DNA from: Gemmatimonadota bacterium
GTDB lineage: Bacteria; Gemmatimonadota; Gemmatimonadetes; Gemmatimonadales; Gemmatimonadaceae
Reading direction: 5' to 3'
Assembly (NCBI GenBank): GCA_028287305.1
Contig: JAQBPX010000002.1
Span: 62,001 to 126,000 of the forward strand
Length of the DNA: 64,000 bases
Part shown: positions 3,959-52,708 of the stretch, in pieces
How positions within the stretch are numbered: position 1 is the first letter of the stretch
Layout: every line of letters starts with the position of its first letter
The notes under the pieces: generated by a model
What the model saw: the letters and a program-made list of their open reading frames with translations, nothing else
Told to the model about the DNA's origin: nothing
Database searches by the model: none
Program-made: the position numbers and the translations under genes

Positions 3959-6952
3959 TTAGAAGGTCAGGCGGAGGGTCGCGAGGAACTGCTGGGACTG
4001 CGGGAGCACCGTCTGCTCCCACGAGGTATTGCCGCCGCGGCTGCCGGAGAAGAAGGTGCCTTCCGGGTCCGTGCCGGTGTACTTCGTCCAGGTCTTCAGG
4101 TTGCGACCCGAGATCGCGATCTCGGCGCGCTGCGCGCGGGCAAAGCGCTGCACGAGCTGGTCGGGAATCGAGTACGATGCCGAGAGCTCGCGGATGCGCG
4201 CGAAGTTGGCCTTGGTGATGAGGAAGTCGAGGTAGGTGCGGCTCGAGTAGATCTCGGCGATGCGCACCGCGTCGTTCTGGAAGTTCTGCGGGGCGAAGTT
4301 CTCCTCGCAGCGGCTGTTCACCGTGCAGCGCACGCGCGTGTTGCCGTCGAGCTTCTTGTGGCCGTTCTTGAAGTCGAGCATGCCGTACACGTGGAAGCGC
4401 TGGAACGCGGTGACCGTGGTGGAGAACGATCCCTCGACCGGCGGCACCGAACGGCCGAGATAGACCATCGGGGCCGAGGCGCAGGGAACGGCCGCGCCGC
4501 CCTCCTTGCCACCGGAGCCGGGGATCGTGTCGGCGCACATCAGGTTGCTCGTCTTGCCGGCGGCGTCGATCGACGCGCTCAACACGCGACGCTCGAACCA
4601 TGCGCCCACCGGGAAGCCCACCTGGTGACGGACGAAGCTGCCGCCTGACACGAAGGACTGGCCGCCCAGGTCGAGCACCTTGTTGTCGTTCGTGGCGAAG
4701 CTGAACGACATGTCGATGCCGAGCTTGTCGCCGCGGTAGGGGGTGCCGCGAACCAGCGTCTCCCATCCCCAGTTGCGGACGGAGCCGGCGTTGAACGGCT
4801 GCGTGCCGGCGAAGCCGATCGAGGGACCGACCTGCCGGTTGAGGATCGCGTCGGCGGTCTTCTTGTTGTAGTACGTGACCTCGATGCCGATGCGGTCATT
4901 GAGCGCGGCCGCGTCGAAGCCGGCCTCGATCTCCTTGCCACGCTCCGGGCCCAGGTCGGGGTTGCCGATCTCGAGGGGGCGCACCGCGGGCGTGCCGTTG
5001 GGGCCCACCGCGGAGGTGTACGTGCGCAGCGACGCATACGTCGCCGGCTGCTTGCCCGCCTCGCCGTACGCGCTGCGCAGGCGCAGGCTGCTGAGGTGGT
5101 TGAGCATGCCGTTGCCCTTGAAGAAGTCCTCGTCGCTGATGACCCAGCTCACGCTGAACTTCGGGAAGAGCGCGTTCTTGAAGTTCTTGCCGAAGGCGCT
5201 GTGCTGGTCGGAGCGCACGGCGGCGGTGAGGAACAACCGGTCGCGCCAGGCGACCTGCTCCTGCCCGTACACACCGAGCGACGCGTCCTCGCTGAACGAC
5301 TCGGCCGTGCTGAAGTTCTGCGTGGCCGCCGACACCGAGGAGAGCCCGGGCGTGGGGAACACGGAACCGAACGACTCGAGGGAGTGGAAGCTCTGGCGGT
5401 AGTACTGTCCACCCACCGACGTCGTGGTGTGGATGGAGGGCGAGTAGTTCCACATCGCGTTCGCCGCGTAGTCGGCGGTGCGGTAGCGCGTCTGTCCATC
5501 CACCACGTCCGAGGCGCCGAGCGCGTCGGAGCCGAAGCTCGGGTGCGCCACGAGCGAGTCGATGCGCGGCTGGTAGACGTGGTCCTGCGTGTTGGTGAGG
5601 TCGGCGCCGACGGTGAGGCGCTGCGTGAACCATGACACCGGCGTATGGTCGAAGCGTAGGCTGCCGGTGAAGCGGTCGAGGTCCTGCCACATGCGATAGA
5701 GGTCGTCGTACTCACTCGGCAGTCCCGAGTGATAGCACTGCTTGTAGCGGTCGGTGCAGTTCTGCGGCGCCATGGAATAGATGGTCCACACGCGACCGCC
5801 GAATCCGCCCTCGGCGGGAATGCGGGTGGGGCCGGAAACGACGCCGGTGCTGAGCGAGATCTTCATCGAGGGCATCGGCGTGAGGCCCGCGTTGAAGCGA
5901 CCGCTGTAGTGATGCATGTTGTTCGACGGCTCGGGGCCGCCGGCATCCTGATAGTTGCCGCTGAGGTAGTAGTCGAGCGCCGAGACGCCGCCGTTCACCG
6001 CGACCTCGAGCTCCTGCTGGCGCCCGGTGCGGAACTGCTTGCCGTGGCGCGCCTCGATGTCATCGTAGGTGATCTTCGTGAGCGTGCTGCCCACCATGCC
6101 GAAGTTGTCGGGGAAATACTGTCCCGGGTTCGACAGGTAGTTACCGCCCTGCCGCAGCGTCATGTTCCAGCGCGCGGCGCCATTGCGTCCCTTCTTCGTG
6201 ATGATCTGGATCACGCCGTTCGAGGCCTCGGTGCCGTAGAGCGTGGCGGCCGAGGGACCCTTGAGGATCTCGACGCTCTCGATGTCGTCGGGATTGAGGT
6301 CGTTGAGGCGCGAGATCACGCCACCGCCGAACGACGATTGCACCGCGGGACCGGAGCCCTGCGCGTTGGTGACGCGCACGCCGTCCACGTAGAGCAGCGG
6401 CTCGGCGGAGAGCGAGAGGCTCGAGATGCCGCGAATGCGGATCTTGGCGCCCGAGCCGATCTGCCCGGTGCCGGGGATGATGACGACGCCCGCGGCGCGC
6501 CCGTTGATCAGGCTGGTGACCGAGGGAATCGGCGCCTGGGCCACCACGTCGGCGGCGTTGATCTGCGACACCGTGTTGCCGAGCTCGCGGCGCGTCTGCG
6601 CGCCGGCGGTGCCGGTGACGACGACCGCCTCGAGGCTGGCGGGATTCGTGATCATCGAGACGCGCACGTTCTCATCGCCCACTCGCGCCGTGGCACGCGC
6701 GGCTCGAAAGCCGATGCGTCGCACGTCGATGGTCACCGACGATCCGGAGAGTCCCGTGAACCTGAAGTGTCCCTTGTCGTCGGACACCGTTCGCTGGCTG
6801 CTGCCGACGATGGTGATCTGTGCGGCGGCGATCGGGTCCTGCGACCCGAGTCCGGTGATGGTGCCGGCGACCGACCCGCCCTGCGCCGCCAGCGAAGCTG
6901 GCAATGCGAGGATGGCGATGGTCGCGCGGAGGAGAGATGACAAGCGTGTCAT
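3959..6952 (-). CDS. SusC/RagA-family TonB-dependent outer-membrane transporter
   Basis: 997 aa. The start at 6952 is chosen because it opens a clean signal peptide ending SLAAQ. Residues about 27-110 form a carboxypeptidase-regulatory-like beta-sandwich. A TonB plug follows with the SusC hallmarks INGRAAGV and VDGVRV, and EILKGPSAATLYGTEASNG at its end. The rest is a beta barrel ending in an aromatic-terminated strand (LRLTF). With the SusD-like lipoprotein downstream it should form a pedal-bin importer for a polymer-derived ligand, driven by TonB. It is divergent from an ECF sigma operon, which in Bacteroidota is a usual arrangement for regulated SusCD loci. Confidence 0.93.
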   Translation of the reverse strand: MTRLSSLLRATIAILALPASLAAQGGSVAGTITGLGSQDPIAAAQITIVGSSQRTVSDDKGHFRFTGLSGSSVTIDVRRIGFRAARATARVGDENVRVSMITNPASLEAVVVTGTAGAQTRRELGNTVSQINAADVVAQAPIPSVTSLINGRAAGVVIIPGTGQIGSGAKIRIRGISSLSLSAEPLLYVDGVRVTNAQGSGPAVQSSFGGGVISRLNDLNPDDIESVEILKGPSAATLYGTEASNGVIQIITKKGRNGAARWNMTLRQGGNYLSNPGQYFPDNFGMVGSTLTKITYDDIEARHGKQFRTGRQQELEVAVNGGVSALDYYLSGNYQDAGGPEPSNNMHHYSGRFNAGLTPMPSMKISLSTGVVSGPTRIPAEGGFGGRVWTIYSMAPQNCTDRYKQCYHSGLPSEYDDLYRMWQDLDRFTGSLRFDHTPVSWFTQRLTVGADLTNTQDHVYQPRIDSLVAHPSFGSDALGASDVVDGQTRYRTADYAANAMWNYSPSIHTTTSVGGQYYRQSFHSLESFGSVFPTPGLSSVSAATQNFSTAESFSEDASLGVYGQEQVAWRDRLFLTAAVRSDQHSAFGKNFKNALFPKFSVSWVISDEDFFKGNGMLNHLSSLRLRSAYGEAGKQPATYASLRTYTSAVGPNGTPAVRPLEIGNPDLGPERGKEIEAGFDAAALNDRIGIEVTYYNKKTADAILNRQVGPSIGFAGTQPFNAGSVRNWGWETLVRGTPYRGDKLGIDMSFSFATNDNKVLDLGGQSFVSGGSFVRHQVGFPVGAWFERRVLSASIDAAGKTSNLMCADTIPGSGGKEGGAAVPCASAPMVYLGRSVPPVEGSFSTTVTAFQRFHVYGMLDFKNGHKKLDGNTRVRCTVNSRCEENFAPQNFQNDAVRIAEIYSSRTYLDFLITKANFARIRELSASYSIPDQLVQRFARAQRAEIAISGRNLKTWTKYTGTDPEGTFFSGSRGGNTSWEQTVLPQSQQFLATLRLTF

Positions 6953-50622: not shown

Positions 50623-51048
50623 CTACCCGATGGTCAATGTATCCGTCGCCGCCACGTAGCTCGTGCTGAACGCCCGCAGCGAGCGGCCCGCGGGGCCCTC
50701 CACCACGTGTCCGTCGCTCGCGAACTGCGACCCGTGCGTGGGACAGTAGAAGCGCTGTCCCTGCACGCGCGTGCGGTTGACCTCGTGCGTGCACGTCATG
50801 TCGAACGCCGAGAAGGTCGCGCCGCCGGTGCGCACCACCGCCACCTGCGTCAGCACCTCCACCGGCTGCCCGATGGTGGCGAGCGCCGCGAAGTCCCCGA
50901 CCTTGATCGTGGTCGGTCCGCTCAGGGTGGCCGACGGCCCCAGCCCGATGATGCCGTCGCCACACGCAGCCACCAATGCCGCCACCGCCGCAAGCGCTGC
51001 GGAACGACCGAGAAACTCACGCCGGTTCAGGCAGTCGTCACAGGACAT
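50623..51048 (-). CDS. Tat-exported Rieske [2Fe-2S] lipoprotein
   Basis: 141 aa. Twin-arginine signal NRREFLGRS followed by a lipobox-like ALVAAC. Rieske cluster ligands are complete: Cys86 and His88 in CTHE, Cys102 and His105 in CPTHGS. The N-terminus has a CDDC pair just before the twin arginine, similar to the CTGC pair of the next Rieske protein upstream. It is the last gene of a compact operon with two membrane proteins and a second Rieske. The expected location is the periplasmic face, transferring electrons to or from the membrane cytochrome. Confidence 0.93.
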   Translation of the reverse strand: MSCDDCLNRREFLGRSAALAAVAALVAACGDGIIGLGPSATLSGPTTIKVGDFAALATIGQPVEVLTQVAVVRTGGATFSAFDMTCTHEVNRTRVQGQRFYCPTHGSQFASDGHVVEGPAGRSLRAFSTSYVAATDTLTIG

Positions 51049-51069
51049 CGGTCGTTCCCCGTTCCCTTT

Positions 51070-51594
51070 TTAGAGGCGAACCAGCGCAGCCTTCCACTCC
51101 GCGGCATCATCGTCCTCGCGCAACAGCTTGTCCACGTCCACCACCAGGTTCGCGCCGTCGCGACGGATCGCATACCGATCCATGCTCCGGGTCGCGCGCC
51201 CCTCGATGAACTCCCCGTCCATCCGGTAACGGGACTTGTGCTTGGGGCACTGGAAGCGCGACTCGCTCGCATCCCAGCGCAGCGCCGTGTTCTGGTGCGG
51301 GCACGCCAGCCCGAAGGCGTACGCGACCCCCGCGCTGCGCGCGATGATCACCGACTCGTCCTTGTCGATCTGCACGCCGTCCGCGGCGGGAATGGGGTAC
51401 GCGTGCTCATTCCGCGCGCCGCCTTCGCGGCGGCCCGACACGAACTCCAGCGGCAGCGCGCGCGCCACCGACGGGGTCATCCCCGCTGCCACGAGCGCGC
51501 CAAGGGCCAGGCGCCCCATGTCGCGCAGGAACGCGCGACGGTCGCCAAGGGCCTCACATCCGGTGCAATCGTCCGGTGCTTCATGCTGCGTCAT
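51070..51594 (-). CDS. Tat-exported Rieske [2Fe-2S] protein
   Basis: 174 aa; start at 51594, before a Tat-like signal (DRRAFLRDMG, then a hydrophobic stretch ending VARA). Rieske ligands are Cys98 and His100 in CPHQ, and Cys116 and His119 in CPKHKS. It lacks the Gly-rich CTHLGC...CPCHGS pattern of bc1 Rieske proteins, so cluster potential may differ. An N-terminal CTGC precedes the twin arginine. The spacing to its neighbours is 21 and 35 nt, so it is co-transcribed with the second Rieske and two membrane proteins. Confidence 0.92.
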   Translation of the reverse strand: MTQHEAPDDCTGCEALGDRRAFLRDMGRLALGALVAAGMTPSVARALPLEFVSGRREGGARNEHAYPIPAADGVQIDKDESVIIARSAGVAYAFGLACPHQNTALRWDASESRFQCPKHKSRYRMDGEFIEGRATRSMDRYAIRRDGANLVVDVDKLLREDDDAAEWKAALVRL

Positions 51595-51629
51595 GCAATC
51601 CTCGACGTCGGATTTACGAGAGTGAATGC

Positions 51630-52103
51630 TCAGGCCGCCTCGACGAGCACGACGCCGAGCAGGGTGATCAGGAGCCACAATGCCAGGCTGATGACCGCGC
51701 TCCGGCGCAACGCGCCCCACCGTGCGCCCCGCTCGGCCCGCTGCATCAGCAGCCCATTCCCGAGCAGCGCGAGCACGAGCGCCATCTTGCTCCAATACAC
51801 CAGCGAGACCGCAAAGGTCTCCACGTCCGACGCGAACAGCAGCACGCCACTGAGCACGGTCACGACGAGCGCGCCGATCACCACCCGGTGCGTACCCGCG
51901 AGATCGAGCAGGTGGCGACGCTCGGCGTCCGCGTCACCCGCCGCAACCCGCAGCGTCGAGCGATCGGCCGCCACCGCGATCCCGCCTCCCACCAGCAGCG
52001 CCCCGAGATGCGCGAAGGTCACTGCGACGGACACCACCTTGGAATGGGAGTACAGCTCCGACCAGGGCTTCACCGCATCGGACAGCGTTTCTACGAAGGG
52101 CAT
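51630..52103 (-). CDS. Four-helix integral membrane protein of the Rieske operon
   Basis: 157 aa with four transmembrane helices (about 23-46, 72-92, 99-119 and 132-155). His32 lies within helix 1 and His72 at the start of helix 2, positions that could ligate one heme; His20 and His64 flank the membrane. No family is recognised with confidence (a CopD- or b561-like fold is possible). It lies 5 nt downstream of the predicted cytochrome b gene. Role by context: quinone or heme-carrying membrane subunit. Confidence 0.75.
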   Translation of the reverse strand: MPFVETLSDAVKPWSELYSHSKVVSVAVTFAHLGALLVGGGIAVAADRSTLRVAAGDADAERRHLLDLAGTHRVVIGALVVTVLSGVLLFASDVETFAVSLVYWSKMALVLALLGNGLLMQRAERGARWGALRRSAVISLALWLLITLLGVVLVEAA

Positions 52104-52108
52104 TGGCG

Positions 52109-52708
52109 TCAGTGGCTCGAGAGCTTCATGGCAAGGCCGCTCACGGTCGTGAGCGCCATCGCCGAGAGCGCGATGGTCCGGTGCTGGCTGCGCGCGTTCG
52201 CGTCAGTCTCGGCCCGGTTCGACAGCACTGCCCCTGCATACGTAAAAGCCGCGTCCGCCGTTAGCATTGCCAGCGCGTGCAGGTTGCGCTTGGTCCGACC
52301 CTGGGGCTGGTTGCGCGACTCCCACCAGTTCCAGCCGCCCGTGACCGTGTTCACCGTGAACATCCCGGCGAGCAGCGAGGCGCCCACCCGATGCCCGTTC
52401 CGTGCCCAGGAGGGAGCATTCGCGCCCTTGTTCCACACCTGCTGCCCGGCGACCCATTGCAGCCCGAACACGGGGATCGTCGCGTAGGCCACCCATTGAT
52501 GAATGGCGAGGCGCGTGGCGTAGGAATCGCTCACTTCCACCGCGCGGACGCGCTTGTGCAGGGTATCACCCCTGTTCAGCAGCGGCGCGCTCGCAGCCAT
52601 CGGCCGCGGCGCGGGAGCCTGGCGAAGCACGGAGTCGGCCCCTGCGGCTGGGCCCGTCGCCACGGTGAGCGCGGCGGCCAGCAGGTTGAAGATCAGCGTT
52701 CCGGTCAT
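52109..52708 (-). CDS. Predicted diheme cytochrome b-like membrane protein
   Basis: 199 aa. After a signal peptide and a spacer there are four transmembrane helices (about 67-88, 103-123, 141-162 and 176-196). One His sits at the N-terminal end of each helix: His70, His106, His144 and His176. Because successive helices run in opposite directions, His70/His144 fall on one membrane side and His106/His176 on the other, giving two bis-His heme sites as in b561-type cytochromes. The heme prediction is inference; the helix and His pattern is directly visible. Confidence 0.7.
   Translation of the reverse strand: MTGTLIFNLLAAALTVATGPAAGADSVLRQAPAPRPMAASAPLLNRGDTLHKRVRAVEVSDSYATRLAIHQWVAYATIPVFGLQWVAGQQVWNKGANAPSWARNGHRVGASLLAGMFTVNTVTGGWNWWESRNQPQGRTKRNLHALAMLTADAAFTYAGAVLSNRAETDANARSQHRTIALSAMALTTVSGLAMKLSSH

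Follow-up and report, generated by a model that had tools for sequence, protein, structure and literature searches.

Four consecutive minus-strand genes, here called A, B, C and D, lie in the window, the 64,000-nucleotide stretch of Gemmatimonadota DNA analysed in this study (Table 1). The initial annotation of this DNA had described four same-strand genes separated by gaps of 5, 35 and 21 nt, and the list of open reading frames and their coordinates confirmed this layout. Gene C is the ATG-started part of a longer frame beginning with TTG, and the relatives of C agree with the ATG start. In a Pfam scan of the flanks, deoxynucleoside kinase and histidine kinase genes were recognised downstream of the operon. 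The opposite flank has a divergent open reading frame that matched nothing in Pfam, together with an epimerase-like and an amidase gene. The promoter/terminator scan yielded no consensus site upstream of A. The CxxCH motif of a cytochrome c1/f partner was absent from the sequences of A to D, and the description of the locus as a compact membrane redox unit without cytochrome c1/f or a large cytochrome b was borne out.

Table 1. Genes and Rieske cluster-binding stretches of the operon (window positions).
Feature	Position	Strand	Description and basis
Gene A	52109..52708	-	199 aa; signal-peptide-like N-terminus and four transmembrane helices; predicted b561-like two-heme protein
Gene B	51630..52103	-	157 aa; four transmembrane helices; distantly like DUF2214/DUF6644/HemJ (UPF0093)/CopD
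Gene C	51070..51594	-	174 aa Rieske protein; Tat signal; CxxC precedes twin arginine
Cluster-binding stretch of C (CPH...CPKH)	51238..51303	-	Motif (L037 9239-9304) and Pfam Rieske
Gene D	50623..51048	-	Rieske protein of 141 aa; lipobox Cys (C29) in its Tat signal
Cluster-binding stretch of D (CTH...CPTH)	50734..50793	-	Motif (L037 8735-8794)

Two small four-helix membrane proteins

The AlphaFold2 model of A (pLDDT 85.4, pTM 0.72) contained four helices, at residues 61-97, 100-130, 138-166 and 170-196, each of which carries one histidine. Conservation of these histidines in homologues had been chosen in advance as a test of the annotation. H70, H144 and H176 were present in 76/76 relatives and H106 in 74/76, and a first set of 53 sequences contained all four in every case (53/53). 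Judged from the helix positions, the bundle would have H70 and H144 close to one of its ends and H106 and H176 close to the opposite one. Model and conservation together uphold the earlier description of A as a four-helix protein with one histidine per helix and two potential bis-His sites. In exactly two of the 76 relatives (L106 2789-3379 and L120 5854-6441) H106 is replaced by methionine; methionine is a heme ligand too, and a His/Met heme is possible in these proteins. In the cytochrome b of bc1 and b6f complexes two heme-ligand histidines are located on each of two helices, whereas A has one invariant histidine on each of four. The bc-type families PF00033 and PF13631 were not among the listed matches of A (25 of 35 families).

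The arrangement in A, with four consecutive transmembrane helices and one ligand-like histidine on each, is that of the eukaryotic-type cytochrome b561 family (PF03188, which includes the CYBDOM proteins). The histidine spacing of A is 36/38/32, compared with 36/34/39 in human Dcytb as derived from the residue labels in the excerpted text of PMC10691727. The same excerpts assign the non-cytoplasmic b561 heme to the first and third histidines, and place small heme-packing residues at H3+4, H3+18, H4+4 and H4+18. Small residues occur at corresponding offsets in A, at H1+4 (76/76), H2+4 (76/76) and H4+4 (73/76), and glycine is found at both H1+18 and H2+18 (76/76 each). Positions H3+4 (Met, Phe or Leu), H3+18 (mostly Leu) and H4+18 (Met) are not small, and the presumed heme-packing glycines are therefore on helices 1 and 2 in A and not, as in b561, on helices 3 and 4. 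A also differs from b561 at H1+20, where it most often has Gln and no conserved Arg or Lys. In CYBDOM proteins, according to the excerpts of PMC10691727, the N-terminus lies outside the cell and bears a redox partner domain, a layout that A as predicted here would resemble; unlike in b561, the partner of A is a separate Rieske protein.

The N-terminus of A is signal-peptide-like, with AxA-like sites in 74/76 relatives under a loose pattern. With the N-terminus outside, the H70/H144 site would be periplasmic. The net charge is +2 both in the stretch before helix 1 and in the loop between helices 2 and 3, which does not favour this topology. A conserved cluster of polar and aromatic residues (N120, T121, T123, W126 and N127, together with R66) lies beside the H70/H144 site, and columns conserved at 90% or more made up 15/64 on this face and 10/74 on the opposite face.

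Searches of A against the b561 and DUF families, as had been proposed with the annotation, gave weak matches for single relatives, to DUF4079 (61/76, best 2.2e-5), Ni_hydr_CYTB (15/76) and Cytochrom_B561 (2/76 at E≤1, best 1.8e-3), and the window protein itself remained below all cut-offs, with 13.6 bits against DUF4079 (PF13301, cut-off 31.4) and 12.3 bits against cytochrome b561 (PF03188, cut-off 23). No Pfam or NCBIfam match of window A exceeded a cut-off, and its placement in a known family of either collection was rejected. Fold searches brought up mainly designed or generic four-helix bundles and did not set natural heme proteins apart from designed ones; the natural b561 structure 4o6y was recovered with a Foldseek E of 1.2-1.3 and a TM score of 0.36-0.40, below designed bundles. 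A profile match in the PDB to the designed two-heme protein 4D2 (E 0.0016) was suggestive but weak. On the basis of sequence and model, A is predicted to be a small integral-membrane cytochrome of b561-like layout with two hemes, and its topology is predicted in the same way.

The description of B as a second four-helix membrane protein was supported by a confident model of four long helices (pLDDT 96.1). H32, D47, H72 and K106 are invariant (59/59), as are N116 and W143. Weak matches of B proteins were obtained to DUF2214 (47/59), DUF6644 (39/59), UPF0093/HemJ (34/59) and CopD (20/59), and B shares with these families the four helices and a conserved His and Lys. In contrast to them, B is linked to Rieske genes, and the window protein scored below their curated cut-offs (UPF0093, 15.5 vs. 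34.2; DUF6644, 12.5 vs. 27), gave no DUF2214 or CopD match at E≤1, and had nothing above cut-off in Pfam or NCBIfam. In the model H32 and H72 appear to lie at different helix depths, so that B is no obvious bis-His protein; assigning it a function with heme or quinone is guesswork. The possibility that A and B are copies of one fold was rejected (profile comparison probability 0.5%).

A and B might also not be redox proteins at all, with the histidines binding a metal or serving the structure and the Rieske genes being unrelated cargo. No homologue has been solved and the Pfam matches are under cut-offs, as this explanation would have it, but the four histidines are near-invariant, are replaced only by methionine and are accompanied by b561-like spacing and packing residues, and the linkage to Rieske genes is steady in two phyla. 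We regard a non-redox role as the most improbable of the explanations considered here.

The Rieske proteins C and D

C and D both matched the Pfam Rieske family (PF00355) with 38.0 and 38.4 bits, respectively, against a cut-off of 20.3, and they are homologous to each other (profile comparison 98.9%). The cluster ligands are invariant in both, C98, H100, C116 and H119 in C (60/60) and C86, H88, C102 and H105 in D (37/37). Family scores and sequences agree with the annotation of both as Tat-exported Rieske proteins with a CxxC ahead of the twin arginine (C10/C13 followed by R19R20 in C, C3/C6 followed by R9R10 in D). This CxxC, located in the cytoplasmic part of the Tat signals (window 51020-51594), is widely kept: each Cys was present in 59/60 C proteins, and the two in 30/37 and 27/37 D proteins. 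The signal of C is cleavable-looking, with AxA within range in 52/60. D has a lipobox Cys in 37/37, and the residue that follows is Gly in 32/37. According to the sorting rule of E. coli, Gly after the lipobox Cys allows an outer-membrane location; by this analogy, which may not hold in the host, the rule would allow D to reside in the outer membrane. Longer forms of D (~270-293 aa) were encountered at L119 7063-7881, L145 6977-7786 and L149 6573-7451, and by length also at L124, L144, L147 and L153. Two Rieske motifs were seen in L051, L057 and L059, the counterparts of the long-D loci L119, L145 and L149.

The residues around the cluster differ between the two proteins. C carries S121 (60/60) and Y123 (57/60), and D has Ala (25/37) or Ser (11/37) at position 107 and Phe (33/37) at position 109. 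In the yeast Rieske protein the Ser adds ~130 mV and the Tyr ~65 mV to the potential, and an anammox Rieske protein without the Tyr is still above +300 mV (both from excerpts of PMC12954380). From its Ser/Tyr pair, C is predicted to have a higher potential than most D proteins, a prediction to be taken with the caution that the anammox example imposes. C is without the disulfide Cys pair and has T103 (59/60) and K/R118 instead; the pair was found in 16/37 D proteins and is missing from the window D. The first His ligand of C is flanked by Pro99 (59/60) and a nearly invariant Gln101. In bc1, the residues flanking this ligand matter for quinone reactivity, as described in the excerpted part of PMC3758308, and since Pro99 and Gln101 are unlike the bc1 pair, they weigh against a quinol-oxidation site formed with C.

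C and D resembled both arsenite oxidase small subunits and b6f Rieske proteins, and the closest solved relatives of C included the arsenite oxidase subunit AioB. C resembles AioB as a Tat-exported Rieske protein and, judged from the excerpts of PMC3758308, shares with NT-26 AioB the Pro beside the first His ligand, but it retains the Tyr that AioB replaces by Phe. The scan of the operon and of five genes flanking it revealed no AioA molybdopterin subunit. These relatives bear on a reading in which electrons enter through the module, a periplasmic donor reducing the Rieske proteins and A carrying the electrons inward to the quinone pool. The small subunits that C and D resemble receive electrons from a catalytic partner, whereas no molybdopterin or other dehydrogenase subunit was present in the flanking genes scanned, and with the high predicted potential of C the reduction of menaquinone would be uphill. 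Electron entry by this route is very unlikely in our estimate.

Distribution, linkage and gene order

Named genomes were scanned with a single peptide pattern, which cannot show absence of A elsewhere; judged by record title, the best 80 of 101 confirmed A loci comprised 79 from Gemmatimonadota, two of which come from one Longimicrobiaceae record set, and one from Terriglobia (L159). A was present in 46/99 genomes of relatives, in 90/298 genomes drawn from the phylum (one of these, G020, by a 35-residue match with an internal stop), and in 8/347 genomes of Acidobacteriota, the phylum of L159 (including one short 25-bit match and one match with an internal stop). No match to A was found in 72,556 plasmid records. 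Of the 99 genomes, 40 had both A and a strong B match (E below 1e-40), 6 had A without B, 5 had B without A and 48 had neither (Fisher p = 1.4e-15), a co-occurrence far beyond chance. Conservation of the operon extends over many Gemmatimonadota and reaches a few Acidobacteriota.

Linkage was evaluated at the 44 of the 80 loci where the cluster is flanked on either side by 2.5 kb or more (interior loci); the other 36 lie at contig edges and were left out. Retention of Rieske neighbours by the homologues was a second test set beforehand, and a Rieske gene accompanied A at 41/44 interior loci, the exceptions being L129, L164 and L172. A, B and C occurred together at 36 of these loci, C at 37 and D at 32. 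Over all 80 loci a Rieske gene was found at 71, and six of the nine loci lacking one were edge loci. The genes are closely spaced, with a median A-B gap of 4 nt and gaps of ≤60 nt in 50/53 (A-B), 51/58 (B-C) and 29/34 (C-D) cases. In Acidobacteriota, B and/or C adjoined A or the remains of A at 8/9 loci, as seen in flanks of only 1.5 kb.

The annotation had treated the four genes as one compact electron-transfer unit, and here the comparison led us to a different view. With A, the genes were found in the orders A-B-C-D, A-D-B-C, B-A-C-D, B-C-A, A-D and A-C; without A, there were B-C loci (L209 and L212) and a B-D locus (L214), and B occurred without any Rieske match at L210, L211, L213, L215 and L216. 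D was missing at many loci and at some was the sole partner of A. A second copy of A in the source genome, located on another contig, is partnered by a D-type Rieske protein only (L038 7203-8241; C24 ~337.2-338.2 kb). To explain the A-D arrangement, the tree of A needs four changes or more; this rules it out as a single subfamily of A and shows that partners were swapped repeatedly. Such swapping favours a mix-and-match set of small redox components over a complex of four fixed subunits. The core is A-B-C, Acidobacteriota included, and D is an accessory Tat lipoprotein. The idea that the two Rieske proteins serve as alternate acceptors found no support, as C belongs to the core with B, and D is a predicted Tat lipoprotein absent at many loci.

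At one acidobacterial locus (L228, genome G516) B-C is intact and A persists only in fragments, one with a stop, a natural loss of A. Together with the B-C pairs at L209 and L212, this locus indicates that C is not dependent on A everywhere. At four loci (L140, L155, L158 and L169) a convergent gene with an ABC-ATPase-like start, as read by eye, is inserted between A/D and B/C. A link to a conserved neighbouring enzyme was rejected, as the other flanks looked at differ. Tandem pairs of weak relatives of B near small exported proteins were seen in other Gemmatimonadota (L217-L220) and probably form a separate DUF6644-like family. The lone B gene of L213 (~4992-6710) adjoins a gene whose start, by eye only, is like that of an exported cupredoxin.

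The modular gene content is relevant to a possible role in supplying reductant to the periplasm. In analogy to heme donors of the MsrQ type, A (or B) would receive electrons from menaquinol or from a donor in the cytoplasm and pass them to the Rieske proteins C and D, and these to reductases or oxygenases of the periplasm or outer membrane. The operon has no catalytic subunit, C looks released, D is predicted to be lipid-anchored with Gly after the lipobox Cys, and partners are swapped (A-D, B-C and B-D), all of which would suit a supply line of this kind, but no recurring target enzyme was seen in the flanks looked at. We consider reductant supply unlikely, if better placed than the other alternatives.

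Metabolic setting and proposed function

The source genome gave no match to the bc-type cytochrome b families PF13631 or PF00033. On its contig C9 an NrfD-family match has as neighbours a protein with five CxxCH motifs and a Tat protein of 1021 residues, a locus that is probably an alternative complex III operon and would provide the housekeeping quinol:cytochrome c step with unrelated proteins encoded elsewhere in the genome. NrfD-family proteins were present in 99/99 genomes and are not all necessarily complex III. A bc cytochrome b was found in 24/46 genomes with A and in 27/53 without A (Fisher p = 1.0). The simple reading of the A module as a replacement for complex III was rejected, because the presence of A is independent of bc cytochrome b and the source genome has a probable alternative complex III. 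With no bc cytochrome b detected in that genome, these observations make the module look accessory. In a Gemmatimonadota survey (PMC9426454), petB was reported in 23% of genomes and alternative complex III, by KEGG, in <10%, the quinone was menaquinone, and the authors allowed for complex III modules that are novel or unrecognised; the word 'Rieske' does not appear in the survey. A search for the NosZ family, related to a nos-type Rieske link, was blank everywhere, controls included, and is hence uninformative.

The initial annotation had called the unit functionally like bc1/b6f. In its strongest form this would be a minimal, independent bc-like quinol oxidoreductase, in which menaquinol would give up its electrons on the periplasmic side, at a site between C and the first heme of A: one would go to C and on to a soluble acceptor, and its counterpart would cross both hemes to reach a quinone on the cytoplasmic side, as in a Q-cycle. 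Like bc1/b6f, the module combines two predicted b hemes across the membrane with an exported Rieske protein, and a bc-like function would account for the high-potential type of C (its Ser and Tyr), for the conserved residues N120, T121, T123, W126, N127 and R66 beside H70/H144, and for a source genome without bc cytochrome b. Unlike bc1/b6f, the module has neither cytochrome b/b6 nor c1/f, C lacks the disulfide pair and has other quinone-side residues, Pro and Gln in place of the bc1 quinone-reactivity pair described in the excerpts of PMC3758308, and its signal looks cleavable, unlike a lasting membrane anchor. The source genome also encodes a probable alternative complex III, and the presence of A does not track the loss of bc cytochrome b. 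We judge a bc-like oxidoreductase distinctly unlikely, and the functional likeness was not sustained given the b561 pattern of A, the Pro/Gln of C and the probable alternative complex III. The parts of the operon are of known kinds and may work like a Rieske/heme-b unit, yet the unit departs from both bc1/b6f and b561 in defining features that were tested.

The reading that we prefer, with moderate confidence, is that A forms the b561-like two-heme conduit of an accessory unit and trades electrons, one at a time, with a Rieske carrier in the periplasm. One heme b would be bound close to one face by the histidines of helices 1 and 3, and a second close to the other face by those of helices 2 and 4; with hemes so placed, A could move single electrons from one side of the membrane to the other. 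C, exported by Tat, would dock on the periplasmic face of A and/or B and act as the one-electron partner there. B would be a HemJ/CopD-like four-helix companion that may bind heme or quinone, and D, where present, would be a lipid-anchored second Rieske protein extending the chain. The partner on the n-side would most likely be menaquinone, the presumed path linking quinol or another n-side partner to C (and D) through the two hemes of A, and the unit would be accessory to alternative complex III. Gene order, conservation, the Rieske motifs, the co-occurrence and the undetected bc cytochrome b are observations; heme binding, topology, the use of quinone, assembly into a complex and the direction of electron flow are inferred.

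This conduit reading is supported by the histidine conservation of A, its b561-like spacing and packing offsets, the weak matches to cytochrome families, the Rieske linkage, the co-occurrence of A and B, the Ser/Tyr pair of C and the better-conserved H70/H144 face. Against it stand the Pfam scores of A and B below cut-offs, the unspecific fold matches, the charge distribution of A, the B-C loci without A and the A loci without Rieske genes (3/44). A bolder proposal, which we put forward only tentatively and think rather doubtful, is that A-B-C(-D) is a new, independently assembled Rieske/heme-b respiratory module, with a b561-type path and both released and lipid-anchored Rieske proteins. Its role would be to conduct electrons drawn from menaquinone through the periplasm, possibly as far as the outer membrane, or even to serve as a minimal quinol oxidase with bifurcation.

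Known examples of Rieske proteins cooperating with membrane heme b come mainly from bc1/b6f complexes with their large cytochrome b. In open-licence papers we found no description of a b561-like four-helix protein paired with a Rieske protein, and none of such a unit in the literature under the HemJ and DUF names. In the conserved operon described here, the predicted two-heme protein that accompanies the Rieske proteins has 199 residues and is laid out differently. If the proposal is true, it would illustrate how small a set of proteins can suffice for a transmembrane heme/Rieske path, and Gemmatimonadota would have an unrecognised respiratory component encoded by genes of about 600 bases or less.
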